Origin: Kordiimonadaceae bacterium | GTDB taxonomy: Bacteria; Pseudomonadota; Alphaproteobacteria; Sphingomonadales; Kordiimonadaceae | DNA: 10,612 nt | NCBI GenBank assembly: GCA_016763495.1 | Contig: JAESTR010000040.1 | Span: 1 to 10,612 of the forward strand | Direction: 5' to 3' | The notes under the pieces: generated by a model | Databases searched by the model: none | What the model saw: only the letters and a program-made list of their open reading frames with translations | Told to the model about the DNA's origin: nothing | Part shown: one piece after another, positions 1,021-10,612 of the stretch | Layout: the number at the start of each line of letters is the position of its first letter | Numbering within the stretch: position 1 is the first letter of the stretch | Program-made: the position numbers and the translations under genes

Positions 1021-1617
1021 ATGCGCGCTGCATTCAAGAGAGATTGGCTTACTAATCAGGTGTTAATAGCCCTGCTTATCAGCTGCCTATTCTGCACAAC
1101 AGTTAGCGCTGTTCAACTACCAAGCCAGTCCACGGACAAAAACCAGTTAAAATCACTATTTCTGTACCGGCTACCCAAACTTATAAAGTGGCAAAACTCG
1201 AGCAAAGCCGGTGCTGTTTTCTTCCGATACTGTATTCTAGATGCGCCCAAATTCTCCAGTGCGCTTAGCGCTTTGGTTTCCGGTAAAAAAATAGCACGTA
1301 AAATTATTGAAGTAGTGGCATTCGACGAAAAAAATAGCCGCCAAAATTGCCACATCGTATTTGTAGGTACTGCCAGCTCCATTAACACCCAGCCATCTTC
1401 ACAAGCCTTGATCAAAAATCTAATCAACAAGGGCGTTTTACTCGTCGGTAACCATCCGAGTTTCATTGCCGCTGGAGGCCAGATTAATTTGGCCAATCAT
1501 TACAATAAACTCATTTTTGAGATCAACAAATCTGTATTGCAAAATACGAAACTTAGAATTAATTCCCGCTTACTTGATTTTGCTAATATCGTTACCCCAG
1601 AACGTGAAGGGCGATAA
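1021..1617 (+). CDS. YfiR-like periplasmic protein (DUF4154 family)
   Basis: A 198-residue protein with an N-terminal signal peptide: charged residues (R2, K6, R7), a hydrophobic core at about 13-24 and a likely cleavage after TVSA (residue 30). The mature part fits the YfiR/DUF4154 family: LKSLFLYRLPKLIKW near the start, HIVFVG in the middle, then GNHPSFIAAGGQINLA, a FEIN strand and RINSRLLDFANIV at the end. In Pseudomonas, YfiR is a periplasmic inhibitor of the CHASE8-containing diguanylate cyclase YfiN. Only two cysteines remain in the mature protein, C71 and C110, which could form the first of the two YfiR disulfides; the second pair is absent. The start at 1021 is kept because it gives the charged n-region; a GTG at 1060 would remove it. 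The stop is two bases before the downstream kinase start, so the two are very likely co-transcribed and the protein probably acts on the kinase's periplasmic domain. Confidence 0.83.
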   Translation: MRAAFKRDWLTNQVLIALLISCLFCTTVSAVQLPSQSTDKNQLKSLFLYRLPKLIKWQNSSKAGAVFFRYCILDAPKFSSALSALVSGKKIARKIIEVVAFDEKNSRQNCHIVFVGTASSINTQPSSQALIKNLINKGVLLVGNHPSFIAAGGQINLANHYNKLIFEINKSVLQNTKLRINSRLLDFANIVTPEREGR

Positions 1618-1619
1618 AA

Positions 1620-3560
1620 ATGATCAGCACTTCATTCCATTCATCAGGGAAAACCATTTCACAAGTCTTAGGCCGAGTTAGTTTTATAGCCGCCCTAGCC
1701 TTATGCCTTTTAATTGGGAATAGCTTTTTCCTTTACGATTATTTTCAGGAAAAAGACATCTCGAGCCAAACTTTAATGACCTTGGTCAAAGTTCAGGCGG
1801 GCAGTAGTTTAGTGCCTTTAACATTTAGCGACAGCGACACATTAATTCGTAATCTACAAGAGCTCAAAGCACAAAAAAATATCAGCCACGCCTGCGTTTT
1901 TAATACCGACGGCACCACTTTCGCAAGCTATGCTAAAACCACTTATGACATACGGCTATGTGACAAGTTGCCTGCCATCATTGGCTATGATTACTTACAA
2001 GGTATCACTGACATAACATACCCGATAACGTTGGACGGCGAAGAGATAGGCTTACTCTATATGCGCATGGAGTTGGGCTTTCTCCATAAACGTCACTTGT
2101 ACCTTTGGTTTTTTTCATTTCTGGTCACCATTAGCATTCTAATTCTGGTAACTATCATTTCAACGCACCTTAATAAATCCATTTCCGAGCCCCTAATTAT
2201 TTTATCCAATAGAATGGCAGATATTTCTGCCGCGAAAAACACTGGCATCCAAGTAGAGGTACCCAAAGTTGGCCTAGAGACACAAACATTAGCGAAAGAA
2301 TTCAATCAGCTGATACAAATTATACAAATGGAGAAGTCCGACCTAACACGCTTAAAAGAAGAGGCCGACTACGCAAACAGACTAAAATCTGAATTCTTAG
2401 CCAACATGTCCCACGAGTTACGCACGCCGCTAAATGCTATTATAGGGTTTGCCGATTTAATGAGTTCAAAAGGGCGGCGCAGCTTCAGTGATGCTCAAAT
2501 CCTTGAATTTTCAGATGACATCAAGCTATCTGCCGAGAATTTGCTTGGTATTGTAACTGATATTCTTGACCTATCGAAAATAGAAAACGCTGGCATTGAA
2601 ATTGCGCCAGAATTATTGCCTCTGCGCAAACTAGCTGAATCCTCCATTGACTTACTCAGCCACCGCTCAGCGCAACAAGGTGTCACAGTCATCAACAAAA
2701 TCCCCCGAAACAGTGAACTGATATTTGTAGATCCACGCAGGATCAAGCAGATTTTTATCAATTTACTCTCGAACGCGATTAAGTTTAGCAAAAAGGGTGA
2801 CGAAGTTATTTTCGAACATAAAATGCTCCCGGATGGGAAAATGGAGATCACTATCAGCGATAGTGGCATCGGCATCCCTAAAGACAAAATCGACATCGCT
2901 TTATCTCGGTTTGGTCAAATTAACAGTGGCATGAACAAACCGAACCCTGGTACCGGCCTTGGCTTACCGCTCGCTAAATCTTTTGCCGAGATGCATGAAG
3001 GAAGTTTCAGACTTGAAAGCGAAGTTGGTGAAGGAACATCAGCTATCGTAACCATTCCCAGAGGGCGCATTCACAAACCTCTAGACCTAAGTGCGGCCAC
3101 CATCCAAATTAAAAGGCCAGACCAACAAGACCCACAAAATAGAGCTCCGACCAAATCCATCACCACACATGACACCAACATAAGAATATTGGTTGTAGAA
3201 GATAACCTTATTAATCAAGGCATTATGGGTAATATGTTGGATACCATGAAACTCAATTATGACATTGTGGACAATGGCCAACAAGGCGTTGACGCGGTAT
3301 GTGCCAACGACTATTCAATTGTGCTAATGGATATGCAAATGCCCGTGATGGATGGTTATGAAGCCACTCGGGTAATCCGAGAAAAATTTCCGGACGACAA
3401 CCAAGTCCCTATCATCGCTGTTACCGCTAATTCCATGAAAGGCGACCGAGAGGAATGCATATCCAAGGGTATGAATGACCATCTAGCAAAACCTATCAAA
3501 TTGGATATTTTGGAAAATATTATCCAGCGATACAGCCGTCCAGTGGCCAGAAAAAGATAA
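1620..3560 (+). CDS. Hybrid sensor histidine kinase / response regulator with CHASE8-like periplasmic sensor
   Basis: A 646-residue inner-membrane kinase. TM1 is at about 18-40 and TM2 at about 159-181. The periplasmic segment between them resembles a CHASE8 domain and carries two cysteines (C92, C114). A HAMP segment follows (about 182-240, with SEPLIILSN), then a short coiled coil. The HisKA H-box reads FLANMSHELRTPLN with phospho-acceptor H265 (codon 2412-2414). The HATPase domain has the N-box NLLSNAIKFS (381-390), G1 box DSGIGIP (414-420) and G2 box GTGLGLP (444-450). After a linker, a receiver domain (about 521-640) carries the acidic pair E527/D528, phospho-acceptor D571 in LMDMQMPVMDG (codon 3330-3332), T602 and K624. 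All catalytic positions look intact. No HPt domain is present, so an HPt protein and output regulator should be encoded elsewhere. A GAAGG about 9 bases before the ATG serves as ribosome-binding site. It is paired with the YfiR-like gene, the arrangement known for YfiR and the CHASE8 diguanylate cyclase YfiN, but here there is no GGDEF output. Confidence 0.93.
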   Translation: MISTSFHSSGKTISQVLGRVSFIAALALCLLIGNSFFLYDYFQEKDISSQTLMTLVKVQAGSSLVPLTFSDSDTLIRNLQELKAQKNISHACVFNTDGTTFASYAKTTYDIRLCDKLPAIIGYDYLQGITDITYPITLDGEEIGLLYMRMELGFLHKRHLYLWFFSFLVTISILILVTIISTHLNKSISEPLIILSNRMADISAAKNTGIQVEVPKVGLETQTLAKEFNQLIQIIQMEKSDLTRLKEEADYANRLKSEFLANMSHELRTPLNAIIGFADLMSSKGRRSFSDAQILEFSDDIKLSAENLLGIVTDILDLSKIENAGIEIAPELLPLRKLAESSIDLLSHRSAQQGVTVINKIPRNSELIFVDPRRIKQIFINLLSNAIKFSKKGDEVIFEHKMLPDGKMEITISDSGIGIPKDKIDIALSRFGQINSGMNKPNPGTGLGLPLAKSFAEMHEGSFRLESEVGEGTSAIVTIPRGRIHKPLDLSAATIQIKRPDQQDPQNRAPTKSITTHDTNIRILVVEDNLINQGIMGNMLDTMKLNYDIVDNGQQGVDAVCANDYSIVLMDMQMPVMDGYEATRVIREKFPDDNQVPIIAVTANSMKGDREECISKGMNDHLAKPIKLDILENIIQRYSRPVARKR

Positions 3561-3644: not shown

Positions 3645-3676
3645 TCCCAAGCGACCTTGGCTTAGTGCACCTTTTT
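3642..3676 (+). terminator. Possible rho-independent terminator after the kinase gene
   Basis: CCAAG (3647-3651) pairs with CTTGG (3656-3660) around a CGAC loop. After small mismatched bulges, the outer CACT (3642-3645) pairs with AGTG (3664-3667). A run of five T follows at 3672-3676. The stem is imperfect and the T-run starts four bases after it, so this is a weak call. It overlaps the CRP-like palindrome and includes the GTG at 3665 that could otherwise start the next gene. Confidence 0.3.
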
Positions 3677-3754: not shown

Positions 3755-6700
3755 ATGGCACAACAAGATACTTCAGTTGTAACTTTTTTCTTAAACGGCA
3801 AGCAGGTAGAAATAGACTCACCGCCAGCAGATTTACGGTTGGTGGATTATCTACATTTACCTGAAGTGCAGCTCACTGGCTCAAAAAAAGGGTGTGGCCA
3901 AGGCGGCTGCGGGGCTTGTACCGTGGTGCTATCCGCATGGGACACGGCGAAAGGCACAGCCCAGCACCGCTCTATCAACAGCTGCTTGCGACCAGTAGCT
4001 GCGCTTAATGGTCTTGCGGTTACGACTATCGAGGGTACAGGGTCAGTTACCAGTGAAATGAACCCTGTCGCCTTCTCTCTCGCCAAAAACAATGGCAGCC
4101 AGTGCGGCTATTGTTCACCAGGCTGGGTGATGAACATGACAGCCTATATGTCGGCCAATGGCGCAAAAAAACCAACCAAGCAAGAAATTGAAAACATCTT
4201 TGATGGCAACTTGTGCCGCTGCACAGGGTACCGCCCAATCTTAGAAGCCATGAAGACCTATGCGTCTAACTGGTCCCCAGACGACCAGAAAAACTTAATG
4301 AAATGCTTGATCGACCCTGCGTTTAAACCCGCTGGAGTAGACAGTGAAATTGAGCTGGCCCTGCCCCCGTCACCTTGGGGTCCCGAAGCGCCACTAGCGT
4401 TTGAAAGCGACGGCTATGTATGGCGTAGCCCGTCTACGGTAGAAGAATTACTCAGTGACATCTCTGAGCTTGGTGGCACTTCGAACTTACGGCTTGTATG
4501 CGGCAATACTTCTGTTGGCGTGTATGACTATGAAGTAGAAAATCCGCAAAATCTAATCGACATCAACGCCATTACCTCTCTGAAACAAATCACGGTAAAT
4601 GCGTCCAGCATTACTGTTGGCTCGGCAGTGACCTACACTGACCTAATTGCCTTTTTGGAAACTCAAATAGCTACTCTGGGCGCTACCGAAGCCCGCAACT
4701 TTGAAGTCATTCATTATATGGCGAGCCGTACTGCGGGCACCATTGTACGCAACGCAGCCTCCATTGCCGGTAACAATATGCTTGTGTTCAAGCATATTCA
4801 CCAAGGGGAGCCTTTTCCGTCCGACGCCATAACGGCCTATATCGCGGCTGGTGTCACCATAGAGGTAACATCACCCGCTTGGGGCACGGCGCCGCGTACA
4901 ATGGCCATTGAAGAGTTTATCGAGCAAACCATCACTGACGAGAATTATCCGTATGACAAAGTGATCCTGTCGTACGATATGCCCTTCAGTAAGCCGAATG
5001 AATATATTCAGTGCCAGAAAGTTGCGCGCCGTGAGGTCAACAGCCACTCTATCGTCAACAGTGGCATTCAATTTGACATGGATACAGACCTCAAAGTGCT
5101 GGATTGCCGGGTGGTATTTGGCGGTGTTGCCACATACCCGTTCCGCGCAACCAATACCGAAGCTGCTTTCAAAGAGTACGGTATTTCCCTTGAAAATCTG
5201 CCGAAAATTATTACTGCCGTGCAGGAAGATGTGAAAGCAGCCTACACGGCACCCGATAAAAATACAGGCATCACCTACGACTATAAGCTGCAGTTAGCCG
5301 AAAGCTTTGTTTATAAAACGATGGTCAATGTGATCGACCAGTTAGAACCTTGCCAAGTACCCGACCAAGATAAATCCGCTGGCGTTATCAAGTGGGGCAC
5401 ATGGGGTGTAACCGGCGGCACTCAAACTTTTGAAACGGAAAAATACCGATTCCCGATCTCAGAGCCTTTCATCAAAACTGAAGCTTTCCTGCAAGCATCT
5501 GGCGAAACCACGTATGTGCATGACTATGTTATGCCGCCAAACGCCCTTTACGGTGCGGCTGTCACCTCTGAAAGAGCGTTGGCTAATTTTTGTTTTATCG
5601 CGGGTAGTGGCCCGCAAACACCTATCACGGCTGCAGATTTATCTACCCTGCTAGCTGCACGTTTCCCTGATACCTTCAAGGGCTTCATCACTGTAGCCGA
5701 TGTGCCTAACAGAGAGAATTTAGGGCCAGATGACAACGACCCAAATCTTGTGGGCATGGGCGCAGACCAGCCTGTTTATGCTGACGGCTATATCACCTAT
5801 TTTGGCCAAGCCATTGGCGTAATCTTAGCCGTCAATGATGTGGAAGCCGTTAAAATCGCGTATTATGTGACCTCTGAATGTGTTCAATACTCTCCACTGT
5901 CCGCAACTAATCCACTGCACAATGTGCCTGCGGTGCTAACCATTGATGAAGCCGCGGCAGACGGTCAGATATTCCCTGACTATCCTGAAAGTGCGAGTTT
6001 CGTTTCTCACATTTGGAAAATTAAACGTGCAGGCTCTGACATGGCATGGTTAGAGACCACACCAGAGCCTGCTCCCGGTACAATTGATGTACAGCCAACT
6101 AAAGTTGAAAATAACAGCTGCAACCTTGTGCGCGCCCAGCAAAAAACGGGCGACCAGATGCATTTCTATATGGAAACTCAGTCTACTGCCGCCTTCCCAA
6201 ATAAAGATGGCAGCATGCGATTGCACCCGTCCTCACAAAGCCCGATGGATGTGCATAGCACCGTAGCCTCAGTGCTTGGTTTGCCTCTCAATAAGGTCGC
6301 GGTTGAAATCCCATATGTAGGTGGCGGGTACGGCGGAAAAACAACCCAATCTGTGCTAGTAGCCGCGATGGCAGTTGTTGCCGCCAACAAAACCCGCGTG
6401 CCTGTCCGCCTCGCCTTGCAGCGCGCAGAGGACAGCGCCATGGTTGGCCACCGCCATGCTTACCAATGTGACTACCAGATTGCGATTGACACTGGCGCTG
6501 ACAATGCCGCTAACAAAGGCTTGATACGGGGTTGGCAAGGCAATTTCCTCGGCGATGGTGGCGCGACTTATGATTGCTCACTAGTTGTTGGTGATTGCCT
6601 TCAGTTACGGCTCGATAGCGCCTATTTTGTACGCAATTACCAGACCAAACTGGATGTAGTCCGCACCAACAAGGCCTCCAACACAGCCTTCCGCTCAATG

Positions 6701-8119
6701 GGAGATATTCAAGGCATCATCTGCTACGAGAATGCTATCGATAATGCCGCGACAAGCGTTGGCATGCCCACAGATGAAGTGCGACAGAAAAACCTGTATG
6801 ACATTGGGCAGTCCACACCGTTCGGGCAAACACTGACATACTGTTACATGCGCGATGTATGGAATTACGCCATAACCGAAAGCGATTACACCGCTCGCAA
6901 AGCGGATATTGAAACTTTCAACTCAGAAAACAAATGGCTCAAACGTGCCATTTCAATCGTGCCCGTTAAATATGCATCAGGGTATAATCTCGTGACGCTT
7001 GAACAGACCAGCGCACTCGTTTCAGTATATAGCGGTGACGGCACACTTTGCATCCGCCAAGGCGGCGTGGACATGGGCCAAGGCATCCTCACGCAAATCA
7101 TGCAGATCGCAGCTTACGAGCTGAATGTACCCCTAACAATGGTCAATGTAGAAAGCGCGGACACCAGTGTGGTGCCGAACCCGTCATCAACTGGTGCGTC
7201 CACAGGCACACAATATAATGGCTTTGCAGTACGCGAAGCTTGCAGGGCCCTTCGCACACGTCTGCAAGATTATGCACGTGAAAAGCTCGTAGATAACGGT
7301 GATACTTGGTGTAAAGACGCTGGCATTGATTATTGGAATTACGGCACAGACGAAAAGACAGGCCGCCTTGAAGGTTGGCGCCATGAAGCCGGCAACGGCA
7401 AATTAATATGGCAAAACATCGTCGGCATGGCATTTGGCGACCGAGTGAACTTGCAAGCGCAGTATCATGCAGAAATTCCTGGCGGCACCACACCGAGCTC
7501 TAACCTCACGTTCAAAACAGCGGCGGAAAACAAAGCGATCCCCGGCATACCGGTTCAAACAAACAATGTAACGCCTGAAGCAAGTGATAACTTCCTTGGC
7601 TTTACATACAATGTGGCAGTTTCAGAAGTAGAAGTGGACATTTTGACAGTGGAAACCACCGTTGTCCGTACCGACATATATTACGATATGGGTAAAAGCA
7701 TGAACCCTGCCATTGATATTGGCCAGATTGAAGGCGCGTTTGTACAAGGCATAGGCTATGTATTGACCGAAGAATCTCTATATGAAAATGACACAAGTAA
7801 GGACAGCTACGGCCAACTGAACACGCCCAATACTTGGGGATATAAAATACCCGCCACCACCAGCATTCCAAAACAGATGAATGTTACACTCTTCCCGCGG
7901 GAGAAAGCCGCCGCTGGTGTGCCTGAGGCGCCAAGCTTGTTATACTCATCCAAAGAAGTGGGGGAACCACCGCTAGTTTTGGCGGCCAGCGTGTTTATGG
8001 CAGTTAAAAATGCAGTGCGTGCCTCTCGTGTTGAACGCGGCTTGTCACCCCTGTTTGAATTGAGCTGCCCAGCTACTGTGCAAGAGGTGACGAATGCAGC
8101 TGACATTCAATTGAGCTGA
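3755..8119 (+). CDS. Single-chain xanthine dehydrogenase-like molybdenum hydroxylase ([2Fe-2S]-FAD-Mo fusion)
   Basis: A 1454-residue cytoplasmic protein of the xanthine oxidase family (no signal peptide), numbered from the ATG at 3755. These enzymes hydroxylate N-heterocycles or aldehydes at a molybdopterin centre and pass electrons through two [2Fe-2S] clusters to FAD. The plant-type ferredoxin domain has C47, C52, C55 (GCGQGGCGACTV) and C77. The helical [2Fe-2S] domain has C117, C120 (QCGYC) and C154, C156 (LCRCTGYRP). The FAD domain includes VCGNTSVGV and VRNAASIAGNN. A linker leads to the Mo part, which starts near AFLQASGETTYVHD and holds DQMHFYMET (Q801), GGGYGGKTTQS, NTAFRSMG (R980), GGVDMGQG, MNPAIDIGQIEGAFVQG and VGEPP (E1404). 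This order in one chain, with QASGE and IDIGQ-EGAFVQG segments, is like animal or fungal xanthine dehydrogenase; bacterial enzymes are usually split into XdhA and XdhB. It is about 120 residues longer than bovine XDH (1332). The start at 3755 has GGGAA 9 bases upstream; a GTG at 3665 would add 30 unrelated residues. The substrate is unknown because pocket residues differ. Confidence 0.93.
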   Translation: MAQQDTSVVTFFLNGKQVEIDSPPADLRLVDYLHLPEVQLTGSKKGCGQGGCGACTVVLSAWDTAKGTAQHRSINSCLRPVAALNGLAVTTIEGTGSVTSEMNPVAFSLAKNNGSQCGYCSPGWVMNMTAYMSANGAKKPTKQEIENIFDGNLCRCTGYRPILEAMKTYASNWSPDDQKNLMKCLIDPAFKPAGVDSEIELALPPSPWGPEAPLAFESDGYVWRSPSTVEELLSDISELGGTSNLRLVCGNTSVGVYDYEVENPQNLIDINAITSLKQITVNASSITVGSAVTYTDLIAFLETQIATLGATEARNFEVIHYMASRTAGTIVRNAASIAGNNMLVFKHIHQGEPFPSDAITAYIAAGVTIEVTSPAWGTAPRTMAIEEFIEQTITDENYPYDKVILSYDMPFSKPNEYIQCQKVARREVNSHSIVNSGIQFDMDTDLKVLDCRVVFGGVATYPFRATNTEAAFKEYGISLENLPKIITAVQEDVKAAYTAPDKNTGITYDYKLQLAESFVYKTMVNVIDQLEPCQVPDQDKSAGVIKWGTWGVTGGTQTFETEKYRFPISEPFIKTEAFLQASGETTYVHDYVMPPNALYGAAVTSERALANFCFIAGSGPQTPITAADLSTLLAARFPDTFKGFITVADVPNRENLGPDDNDPNLVGMGADQPVYADGYITYFGQAIGVILAVNDVEAVKIAYYVTSECVQYSPLSATNPLHNVPAVLTIDEAAADGQIFPDYPESASFVSHIWKIKRAGSDMAWLETTPEPAPGTIDVQPTKVENNSCNLVRAQQKTGDQMHFYMETQSTAAFPNKDGSMRLHPSSQSPMDVHSTVASVLGLPLNKVAVEIPYVGGGYGGKTTQSVLVAAMAVVAANKTRVPVRLALQRAEDSAMVGHRHAYQCDYQIAIDTGADNAANKGLIRGWQGNFLGDGGATYDCSLVVGDCLQLRLDSAYFVRNYQTKLDVVRTNKASNTAFRSMGDIQGIICYENAIDNAATSVGMPTDEVRQKNLYDIGQSTPFGQTLTYCYMRDVWNYAITESDYTARKADIETFNSENKWLKRAISIVPVKYASGYNLVTLEQTSALVSVYSGDGTLCIRQGGVDMGQGILTQIMQIAAYELNVPLTMVNVESADTSVVPNPSSTGASTGTQYNGFAVREACRALRTRLQDYAREKLVDNGDTWCKDAGIDYWNYGTDEKTGRLEGWRHEAGNGKLIWQNIVGMAFGDRVNLQAQYHAEIPGGTTPSSNLTFKTAAENKAIPGIPVQTNNVTPEASDNFLGFTYNVAVSEVEVDILTVETTVVRTDIYYDMGKSMNPAIDIGQIEGAFVQGIGYVLTEESLYENDTSKDSYGQLNTPNTWGYKIPATTSIPKQMNVTLFPREKAAAGVPEAPSLLYSSKEVGEPPLVLAASVFMAVKNAVRASRVERGLSPLFELSCPATVQEVTNAADIQLS

Positions 8120-8152: not shown

Positions 8153-8187
8153 ATATGCTGGCGCCTTGATCGAGGGCGCCAGCATAT
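8153..8187 (+). terminator. Strong 13-bp perfect hairpin after the molybdenum-hydroxylase gene
   Basis: ATATGCTGGCGCC (8153-8165) is exactly complementary to GGCGCCAGCATAT (8175-8187) around a 9-base loop, 33 bases after the TGA. It is GC-rich next to the loop and AT-rich at the base. The classic T-run is missing: TTAATGG follows. It is most likely a transcription terminator or a 3'-end stabilising structure. An operator is less likely given its place right behind the stop codon. Confidence 0.65.
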
Positions 8188-8505: not shown

Positions 8506-10612
8506 ATGACTTTACACTTACGCCAGAGCGGCGCGAGACCATTTAGTATATGCAAATGCGTTTTAGTAGCGACGACGAGCATGCTTGCAATTTCTACAGG
8601 GTCTATTGCAGCAGATAATGAAGATTTCACCCTTGAGGAAATCATTGTAACCGCACAAAAAAGGGCGCAAAGCCTACAGGATGTACCCATTGCTGTTTCG
8701 GCCATCACCTCACAAACTTTTGACCGCCAAGCATTGCTCAACCTATCAGAAGCACTTGAGCTGACGCCAAACATTGAAGTCGTAGAAAATGATAGCGGTG
8801 CCAACGTTATCTTACGCGGCGTGTCGCGTGGTTCGGTTGCCATACTGCTTGACGGCGTCGCCCAGCTGGGTGGTGCAACTACATTTTCCTCCCCTATCAC
8901 TGACATTGAGCGCGTGGAAGTTTTGCGCGGACCACAAGGGTCAATCTATGGCAGAAATGCCGCTGGCGGTGTTATTAATTACATTACAAAAGCACCGAGC
9001 GAAGAATTTGAAGGCTCAGTGAAAGCTGACTTTGGCAACTATGGCTTCAGCCAATATTCAGGCATGCTGAATGTGCCAGTAGTCGAAGGTAAAGTATCAA
9101 CACGCTTTAACGCCTTTTATGAAGACCGCGGCGGCTGGGTAGATAATGAGTTTGACGGCTCTAAACTAGAAAGCGCCGAAAAATATGGTTTCCGCGGGCA
9201 AATTTTGTTCACACCAAACGATAATCTATCAGCTCGCTTCATGGTGCAGTATAATAACAACAAACCCTCTAGCCACACGGCTTACTACCAGACAGGCTCC
9301 GAGCTTATGGACTTTTGGGTAGCCCATGTGAATGCTGGCCTTGGCAAAAACCTGCCAACGATTGGTAATGATGCCTTCTCTGGCACGACCAACCTTGACG
9401 GCGGAGTCAGCCTGTCAACAAAACAAACTCACGCACAGGCGCACCTGACATGGGATGATGACTGGGGAACATTATTGTCCATCACAGGCTATACTGATAG
9501 GAACCGCAAAGCAGACAATTTGGACACTGACGCTTCCGCGCTCGATCTCCTCGTACTTGACAAAGAAGTAGACAATACTGACTTTTCTCAGGAATTTCGC
9601 TTTGTTTCAAACACGGATGGCAAACTGGAATATGTCGCGGGCCTCTATTACGAGCGTGAAACCTCTGACGTCACTGAAATCACTAGGTTTGGTGAAGACG
9701 GCGACTATATCGCATCGTCCCTTTTTGGTAATGCCTTTGCGACGGGCATTAACAGCGCTATTGGCGTCCCGCTATTACCAACTGACTTCACACCGTTGTT
9801 TACAACAGGCAGTTTCCTCGGAATTTGGGATTATGACGAAGACCATAGCGTCAAAAAAACTTATGCCGCGTACATAAATGCGACTTATAAGCTAACCGAA
9901 AAACTCCACCTAACTGCGGGTGGCCGCCTAAGCCGCGTGAATGACGTTAGGTCTGAACTAGGCATTCCTACGGTTTACAATCTGCAACAGTTGGCAGGTC
10001 CTGAGCTCGCTCCTTTTGCCGCTTTCGTGCCGGATGCCTTCACTATACCGGGTGCAGCGGTGCAAAACGTGCCTATCCCTGTTTATAAAAAGACAGATTG
10101 GTCTGCAGCTGTTAAGGGCACATACTTTGTATCTGACGACATTATGGTTTACGGGTCTGTTAGCCGCGGCTTCACACCAGGCCGTGTAAGTGCGCTACGT
10201 GTAAACAGTACTGATATTCAAATTGATGAATTAGAGCCAGAAGTTATCTGGAACGATGAAGTTGGAACCAAAACCAGCCTCATGGATAACCGCCTGCAGT
10301 TGAATGGTTCACTTTATTTCCTCAATTATTCAAACTTCCGGACATTTACTTTGGTGGACAATGCTTTCCAACCTGCGGACGGCGGCACTATGCATAATTA
10401 TGGTTTCGAACTTGAGGCGATTGCGCGGCCCATTCAGGGTTTAACGCTAATGGCCTCTGTTGGTTATACCAATGCCACATATAAAGATGTTGCTCGCGGC
10501 GGCGAAAATCGTACCGGCTGTTACCTTGGCCAATCCGAAGCAAACGGCTGCATTGATGGCACACAGTTACGCACGGGCCAGCAAGTGGAAGGGTCTGCGA
10601 AATGGAATGGCA
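8506..10612 (+). CDS. TonB-dependent outer-membrane receptor, N-terminal 702 residues (3' end outside window)
   Basis: The frame opens at the ATG at 8506, seven bases after a very good Shine-Dalgarno GGAGGA (8493-8498), and stays open to the right edge. The first 36 residues look like a signal peptide with an unusually long n-region, cleaved near SIA-AD. A TonB-box-like segment follows at about 41-50 (FTLEEIIVTA), then QKRAQSLQDVPIAVSAI, the usual start of the plug domain. Plug hallmarks are NVILRGVSRG, AILLDGVAQ and VEVLRGPQGSIYGRNAAGG, followed by VINYITKAPS. The rest is barrel-like, with alternating strands such as KTYAAYINATYKLTEKL, a SVSRGFTPG segment and LEPEVIWNDEVGTK. Near the right edge two cysteines (GCYLGQ and GCIDG) could close an extracellular loop. 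Such receptors take up siderophores, cobalamin, sugars or other ligands using TonB energy; the ligand is not evident. Being downstream of the molybdenum hydroxylase suggests uptake of that enzyme's substrate, but a strong hairpin and a 386-bp gap separate them, so they are probably separate transcripts. Confidence 0.92.
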   Translation, partial: MTLHLRQSGARPFSICKCVLVATTSMLAISTGSIAADNEDFTLEEIIVTAQKRAQSLQDVPIAVSAITSQTFDRQALLNLSEALELTPNIEVVENDSGANVILRGVSRGSVAILLDGVAQLGGATTFSSPITDIERVEVLRGPQGSIYGRNAAGGVINYITKAPSEEFEGSVKADFGNYGFSQYSGMLNVPVVEGKVSTRFNAFYEDRGGWVDNEFDGSKLESAEKYGFRGQILFTPNDNLSARFMVQYNNNKPSSHTAYYQTGSELMDFWVAHVNAGLGKNLPTIGNDAFSGTTNLDGGVSLSTKQTHAQAHLTWDDDWGTLLSITGYTDRNRKADNLDTDASALDLLVLDKEVDNTDFSQEFRFVSNTDGKLEYVAGLYYERETSDVTEITRFGEDGDYIASSLFGNAFATGINSAIGVPLLPTDFTPLFTTGSFLGIWDYDEDHSVKKTYAAYINATYKLTEKLHLTAGGRLSRVNDVRSELGIPTVYNLQQLAGPELAPFAAFVPDAFTIPGAAVQNVPIPVYKKTDWSAAVKGTYFVSDDIMVYGSVSRGFTPGRVSALRVNSTDIQIDELEPEVIWNDEVGTKTSLMDNRLQLNGSLYFLNYSNFRTFTLVDNAFQPADGGTMHNYGFELEAIARPIQGLTLMASVGYTNATYKDVARGGENRTGCYLGQSEANGCIDGTQLRTGQQVEGSAKWNG

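Follow-up and report, generated by a model that had tools for sequence, protein, structure and literature searches.

What kind of enzyme is encoded by a bacterial gene built like the single-chain xanthine dehydrogenase (XDH) of eukaryotes, and where does its one-piece architecture come from? The gene in question occupies positions 3755..8119 of the + strand in a stretch of 10,612 nucleotides (contig JAESTR010000040.1 of assembly GCA_016763495.1, a Kordiimonadaceae bacterium), hereafter called the window. An initial annotation, made from the letters alone, had named it a XDH of eukaryote-like architecture and had left three origins open: an independent bacterial fusion, a rare bacterial lineage close to the eukaryotic ancestor, or gene transfer. 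The architecture is borne out by our analysis and the name is not. We consider it likely, judging from sequence comparison, that the product, a single-chain hydroxylase belonging to the xanthine oxidase family, resembles an aldehyde oxidase (AO) in its action and is not a purine dehydrogenase, and that its fused gene is probably shared with eukaryotic XDH/AO.

The frame runs from an ATG at 3755 to a stop codon at 8117-8119 and translates into 1454 residues with a single, terminal stop. An alternative GTG start at 3665 would give 1484 aa, and aligned relatives begin near the ATG at 3755. All seven expected Pfam domains are present in the 1454-aa protein, in the order Fe-S, Fe-S, FAD and molybdenum (Mo), one of them, the a/b hammerhead domain (residues 582-705; 5498..5869), with 28.7 bits, just below the cut-off of 31.3. 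The plant-type [2Fe-2S] domain (residues 9-90; 3779..4024; Pfam Fer2 at 12-61) carries C47, C52, C55 and C77, and the helical [2Fe-2S] domain Fer2_2 (residues 91-167; 4025..4255) carries C117, C120, C154 and C156. They are followed by the FAD-binding domain FAD_binding_5 (residues 223-395; 4421..4939), the flavoprotein C-terminal domain CO_deh_flav_C (residues 422-523; 5018..5323), a linker between the FAD and Mo parts (residues 535-566; 5357..5452) and, beyond the hammerhead, the Mo-cofactor domains MoCoBD_1 (residues 791-1014; 6125..6796) and MoCoBD_2 (residues 1041-1372; 6875..7870). The eight cysteines align with rat XDH C43-C149, and the catalytic glutamate E1404 (7964..7966) with rat E1261. 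The initial annotation's description of eight [2Fe-2S] cysteines, a FAD domain and a complete Mo domain in one frame, an architecture like that of eukaryotes in a bacterium, is thus confirmed by translation, Pfam and the alignment with rat XDH. No signal peptide is visible in the 1454-aa enzyme. By its domains, its eight cysteines, the active-site Gln and the catalytic Glu the protein is classed as a molybdo-flavo hydroxylase of the xanthine oxidase family.

The gene has numerous relatives. A search with the query enzyme against 5.8 billion proteins returned, at E<=1e-3 and counting the query itself, 993 proteins, which excludes a chance resemblance. The 120 matches listed (again with the query) are all single chains of 1405-1557 aa, 43-51% identical to the query, the query itself and one partial alignment (P0047) excepted, and their names include Aestuariispira, Aliikangiella, Marinicella, Colwellia, Algoriphagus, Flavilitoribacter, Actinomadura, Labedaea, Pyrinomonadaceae and a metagenome-assembled genome of Candidatus Elarobacter. 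A second search, with a member from a Methylobacterium plasmid as query, gave 1435 proteins; the 120 matches listed (1055-1551 aa, five shorter than 1390 aa) add Sorangium, Acidobacteriota, Verrucomicrobiota, Inhella and Spirosomataceae. The two lists, pooled and all different, make up the 240 family rows used below, that is, the listed matches of 993 and 1435, with 41-53% identity to P0001. With genome-level presence scored at E<=1e-150, the enzyme occurs in 1 of 398 genomes of the Aestuariispira phylum (the seed), in 4 of 247 of the Roseivirga phylum (seed included) and in 2 of 291 of the Roseivirga order, both of them seeds, with no new member. One plasmid carries the enzyme; a second plasmid match proved to be an ordinary split xdhAB. 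Viral carriage was also considered and rejected: 33 matches of two short patterns in viral contigs included no relative.

By these searches the query is an ordinary member of a large, patchy bacterial single-chain family. Because the family is patchy yet widely spread, its distribution suggests horizontal transfer. The enzyme is not an isolated curiosity. A tree placing it inside a large, characterised bacterial family of known substrate had been named as the finding that would refute the initial reading; this applies by half, for the family is indeed large, but in the open-licence literature we found neither a characterised member nor a paper on it. It is seemingly unstudied.

The residues that anchor purines in XDH are missing throughout this family. 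At the position of rat E802 none of the 240 rows has Glu (Thr 213, Gly 11, Cys 11, Asp 2, Ser 1, Ala 1, Gln 1), and at R880 none has Arg (Cys 231, Asn 5, four singles). T1010 is likewise never Thr, being Asn in 238 of 240 rows, and H884 is replaced by Arg in 209 of 240. In the query the corresponding residues of MoCoBD_1 are Q828 (Q767), T863 (E802), C948 (R880), R952 (H884) and M982 (F914), and those of MoCoBD_2 are Y1077/N1078 (F1009/T1010). The catalytic apparatus is kept: Q767 in 240/240 rows, E1261 in 239/240 with one gap, and the eight Fe-S cysteines wherever a row extends over them (24/24 in the comparison with rat XDH). Both E802 and R880 are present in all 15 canonical and all 8 eukaryotic rows of the alignment, and bacterial XdhB has GGKE, with E802, in 35/35 rows (36 loci, of which L068 gave no row and L066 and L071 are one gene). 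The NPAIDIGQ-EGAFVQG motif, which had been taken as eukaryote-like, does match rat XDH, but most family members share its core NPxxDxGQxxGA (113/120 in the first list, 214/240 in the two lists together).

Curated models agree with the residues. The query misses the NCBIfam cut-offs for XdhA (TIGR02963; 284.3 vs 467), XdhB (TIGR02965; 475.3 vs 849.5) and the aldehyde oxidase AOX (TIGR02969; 575.4 vs 1912.3). Moreover, the Aestuariispira genome that carries a family member (L001/G001) has a full split xdhABC elsewhere, and because the two coexist the single-chain protein is an extra enzyme there. A genuine XDH was ruled out as a candidate by the missing E802/R880, the missed cut-offs and the coexisting xdhABC; by residues and by curated cut-offs alike, the query enzyme is not a xanthine dehydrogenase. 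As regards substrate, one point tempers this conclusion. The double exchange E232V/R310M in Rhodobacter capsulatus XDH, affecting both residues, abolished purine activity, and the same source warns that these two residues do not determine specificity on their own (PMC2671166). Because of this warning, the sequence leaves room for some purine activity.

On the flavin side the evidence is partial and only suggestive of an acceptor other than NAD. The acidic pair of XDH is lost, D428 being Asn in 240/240 family rows and D429 being Ala (173) or Ser (67), whereas the canonical (15/15) and eukaryotic (8/8) rows all have Asp at 429; the query has N429/S430 here. The FFxGYR motif is found in none of the 240 family rows, compared to 100 of 120 eukaryotic ones, and T392 stands at its Tyr in the query. 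Two counts weigh against reading much into the motif: its Tyr is retained in 84/240 family rows, and only 15/32 canonical XdhA rows have FF..Y, which makes the motif alone a weak criterion for NAD.

Among known systems, eukaryotic XDH (rat and bovine; PDB 1wyg, 1fo4) shares with the family the single chain, the domain order, the eight cysteines, the catalytic Glu and Gln and a similar linker, the query being 35% identical to rat XDH over the rat letters compared (600 bits in the solved-structure search). The query differs from it by Thr at E802, Cys at R880, Tyr/Asn at F1009/T1010, Asn/Ser at D428/D429, the lack of FFxGYR and a 37-residue family insert in the Mo domain (residues 1175-1211; 7277..7387; of the type WC...GIDFWNYG...GW), which is missing from both eukaryotic XDH rows in the comparison. 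Eukaryotic aldehyde oxidase (AOX, PDB 4uhw) is also a single chain without both purine-anchoring residues, as is reported for AOs (PMC5746545), but the score of the query lies far below the AOX cut-off given above. The fungal nicotinate hydroxylase HxnS is a XDH-like single chain with a changed substrate that, according to PMC5746545, keeps Glu and Arg, and in this the family departs from it. Bacterial XdhA/XdhB (R. capsulatus, 1jro; L010 in Aestuariispira) has homologous Fe-S, FAD and Mo domains, but consists of two chains, keeps E802/R880, shares no linker and forms a separate clade.

The lack of the purine-anchoring residues and of the NAD-side acidic pair predicts a non-purine substrate and a non-NAD acceptor; and because E802, R880, D428 and D429 are gone while the catalytic Glu, the Gln and the cysteines remain, and xdhABC coexists, the enzyme would be expected to work like an aldehyde oxidase. 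In the XDH/AO family, attack by Mo-OH, hydride transfer to Mo=S and an electron path through the Fe-S clusters to FAD are established. By homology to XDH and AO, E1404 would activate Mo-OH for attack on the C-H of an aldehyde or an electron-poor N-heterocycle, the hydride would pass to Mo=S, and electrons would run via the two [2Fe-2S] clusters to FAD. They might then leave to O2, or to a c-type cytochrome where one is encoded nearby. Sulfuration of the Mo cofactor (Moco) may be helped by XdhC.

The linker offers a clue to the origin of the single chain. Its consensus, VPenvRSAGEITWGRWPVSdGTQhYeTQ in the family, compares to lpPSHlSAtqsFHRPPPaGSQDYEeV in eukaryotes, and it is absent from the split bacterial XdhA/XdhB ends tested. 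In the main test, with 240 family and 119 eukaryotic rows (mostly mammals and flowering plants) aligned separately, 0 of 3000 column permutations equalled the match between the two profiles; in a smaller, stricter joint alignment 11/1500 did so. In the joint alignment no signal was found between family and canonical linker regions (566/1500) or between eukaryotes and canonical (699/1500). A wider slice gave 3/500 for eukaryotes against canonical, a match that ends at the third column, within the XdhA helix before the linker. When rows are scored one at a time, z>2 is attained by the family profile on 21 of 39 sampled eukaryotic linkers, by the eukaryotic profile on 25 of 40 family linkers, and by either profile on 0/29 canonical tail+head segments. 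Because the linker resembles the eukaryotic one and not the split bacterial ends, a single fusion is suggested to have been passed down to both the family and the eukaryotic enzymes. The shared linker would also be explained by a fused gene ancestral to all three groups that later split in bacteria.

The trees, a check that the initial annotation had recommended, point in the same direction, with reservations given below. Six trees were built, three of the Mo half, one of the N half and two of the full length without the linker; outgroup rows cover mainly the Mo half, except for an E. coli XdhCBA concatenate. In all six the family forms a single clade (support 100), apart from eukaryotic XDH and from bacterial XdhAB, the latter clade being less firm (36-99). 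A chimeric ORF was ruled out, both halves placing the family as one separate clade. The family joins the eukaryotes with support 91 in the first Mo-half tree, 61 in the N half and 91 in the full length (41 rows x 1221 columns), where family+canonical has p 0.009. Without the longest outgroup row (40 rows, the fullest tree) this support is 97/92, family+canonical is again rejected (p 0.009), and the six eukaryotic rows are monophyletic without the family (99/98). A position of the family as sister to eukaryotic XDH is favoured, not proven, and the family and eukaryotic XDH/AO probably owe their one-piece build to a common fused gene. Among the proposed origins, a lineage near the eukaryotic ancestor is favoured by the fullest tree and by the linker.

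We compared the neighbourhood in the window with that of twelve relative loci, 11 from Bacteroidota and one alphaproteobacterial (L001). In 9/12 loci (9/11 Bacteroidota) a gene for a protein of 406-494 aa adjoins the enzyme or lies one gene away. This protein has weak Pfam similarity to cytochrome P460 and an invariant CxxCH (8/8), and a homologue lies directly upstream of the enzyme on the Methylobacterium plasmid. The cytochrome was found in 5 of the 7 enzyme-bearing genomes and in 0 of 30 lacking the enzyme, three of the five positives having supplied query rows, with G426 and G603 as the only independent matches. Structure models of it reached a mean pLDDT (predicted local distance difference test) of 31.6 from a single sequence and 39.7 from 7 rows. 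In Roseivirga spongicola (L004, G003) the start of the cytochrome gene seems interrupted at ~7000-7200, with two internal TAG codons and a separate small match upstream.

An enzyme of the same class with O2 as sole acceptor, the cytochrome serving another process such as phospholipid handling with a phosphoesterase, is a serious competitor, against which we lean only slightly. It agrees with several observations that speak against a cytochrome route. The cytochrome gene is missing at L001, within the flanks of L003 and in the window, and was not found in the enzyme-bearing genomes of Aestuariispira (G001) and Hymenobacter (G004), because of which it cannot be an obligate acceptor. Most copies start with an apparent signal or lipoprotein sequence (exceptions are the plasmid copy as annotated and L004, read without its first part) and look exported, whereas the enzyme shows no such signal. 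In 4/12 loci a plant-NPC-like phosphoesterase (PF04185; two copies Pfam-scanned), resembling non-specific phospholipase C, stands between cytochrome and enzyme, directly upstream of the latter (L002 8351-9952, L004 8422-9984, L006 7905-9458, L007 8390-9976). Nevertheless, the cytochrome is the most constant neighbour, and it recurs in an alphaproteobacterium. The cytochrome route is put forward as a hypothesis from gene neighbourhood that cannot be general.

Other neighbours bear on maturation and mobility. XdhC-type genes occur in 7/7 member genomes, which is only compatible with a sulfurated Moco; in G603 one shares a contig with the cytochrome gene, at a distance of about 3 kb, and at L005 one lies with mocA about 7 kb upstream on the opposite strand. 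On plasmid pVL1_1 of Methylobacterium indicum, typed as conjugative (L036 8413-20925), the enzyme is encoded between two CxxCH proteins in a cluster that continues with a metallophosphoesterase, a PLD-like protein, a phosphoglycerate-mutase-like protein and DUF2278, possibly a transferable phosphoester/redox cluster.

As to origin, the strongest competitor is a single chain of separate origin from the eukaryotic one, in which case the likeness of the linkers would be convergence or chance and the position near eukaryotes long-branch attraction. We lean somewhat more clearly against this, while granting it a considerable share of probability, and much of what tells against a shared fusion is found here. 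The branch leading to the family is long, with about 1 change per column. The order joining eukaryotes with canonical XdhAB is not rejected in the full-length trees (p 0.146 with 41 rows, 0.136 with 40); it is the best order, with support 38, in the second Mo-half tree. In the Mo half sampled more deeply, in a way similar to the fullest tree, family+eukaryotes has support 43 and no order is rejected (eukaryotes+canonical p 0.516), which leaves this half undecided between orders. The trees contain no aldehyde oxidase row, and fungal, protist and archaeal XDH rows were outside the tested groups. The linker itself has ~32 residues, and against animal rows alone its signal is weak (77/1500 in the joint alignment, 24/500 in the wider slice). 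Against independence stand the permutation results for the linker on the main and the stricter alignments, the absence of signal in the canonical controls, in the stricter slice as well as row by row, and the support of 97/92 in a full-length tree from which the linker had been removed.

We give very little credence to a genuine XDH of purine catabolism fused from ordinary bacterial XdhA and XdhB. The best solved-structure matches are XDH, JGI labels many relatives xanthine dehydrogenase/oxidase, and such a fusion has happened elsewhere: eight long stop-free frames (stop-to-stop) were spotted, and the seven examined yielded one real fusion, in a pseudomonadotal genome (L067 941-4801, G118). 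This canonical-type XDH of 1286 aa has seven domains and keeps E802. It is a single chain like the family, but is nested in canonical XdhAB and has a linker without similarity, and by these comparisons it is an independent bacterial fusion; its union with the family is rejected (p 6e-5). Union of the family with canonical XdhAB is rejected on the full length (p 0.009) and on the halves (p 0.04-0.05), though the deeper-sampled Mo half gives p 0.386. The linker unlike canonical ends, the scores below the XdhA and XdhB cut-offs, the lost acidic pair and the absence of E802 and R880 from 240/240 rows complete the case against this reading.

Transfer of a eukaryotic XDH or AO gene into bacteria with later divergence would account for the eukaryote-like architecture and linker, but is just as improbable, given a eukaryotic clade (six rows, none of them fungal, protist or AO) that excludes the family, family names that span several bacterial phyla, and p values for family+animals of 0.017 (full length, 40 rows) and 0.003 (N half), if only 0.055 in the Mo half (0.052 with plants), which disfavour a recent transfer from animals.

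The setting in the window is one of ordinary bacterial neighbours, according to Pfam and NCBIfam scans. Weak Pfam and NCBIfam matches identify the 3' part of an amidohydrolase at 3-896. Upstream of the enzyme, at 1021-3560, a YfiR/HmsC-like gene is followed directly by one for a CHASE8 hybrid histidine kinase with a receiver domain (Pfam), an apparent two-gene signalling unit. Just past the stop codon, at 8155-8185, lies a perfect 11-bp inverted repeat with a 9-base loop and no T run, likely a transcript end. The 5' part of a TonB-dependent receptor gene (8506-10611; Pfam) begins 386 bases downstream of the enzyme gene; it is possible that this receptor transports the enzyme's substrate. A tRNA scan of the window found none, and, as the initial annotation had stated, none of its five main open reading frames matches XdhC. 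Nor do its short flanks show the cytochrome or the phosphoesterase seen beside relatives.

A label of xanthine dehydrogenase/oxidase, as given in at least one public source, would predict purine catabolism for an enzyme without the purine-binding residues. Bacterial single-chain members should be handy material for biochemical work on enzymes of aldehyde-oxidase type, while an uncharted route for electrons is suggested by the cytochrome gene that recurs next to them. The family is also a handle on the origin of single-chain eukaryotic XDH/AO, the shared linker being testable by sampling more lineages. We regard as evenly poised the fuller proposal that it is a bacterial sister line, going back, like eukaryotic XDH/AO, to one fused gene older than the radiation of eukaryotic XDH, with the same linker, a non-purine substrate and a cytochrome-c- or oxygen-linked electron exit. 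If this is true, the eukaryotic enzyme was not fused within eukaryotes from an XdhA/XdhB operon.

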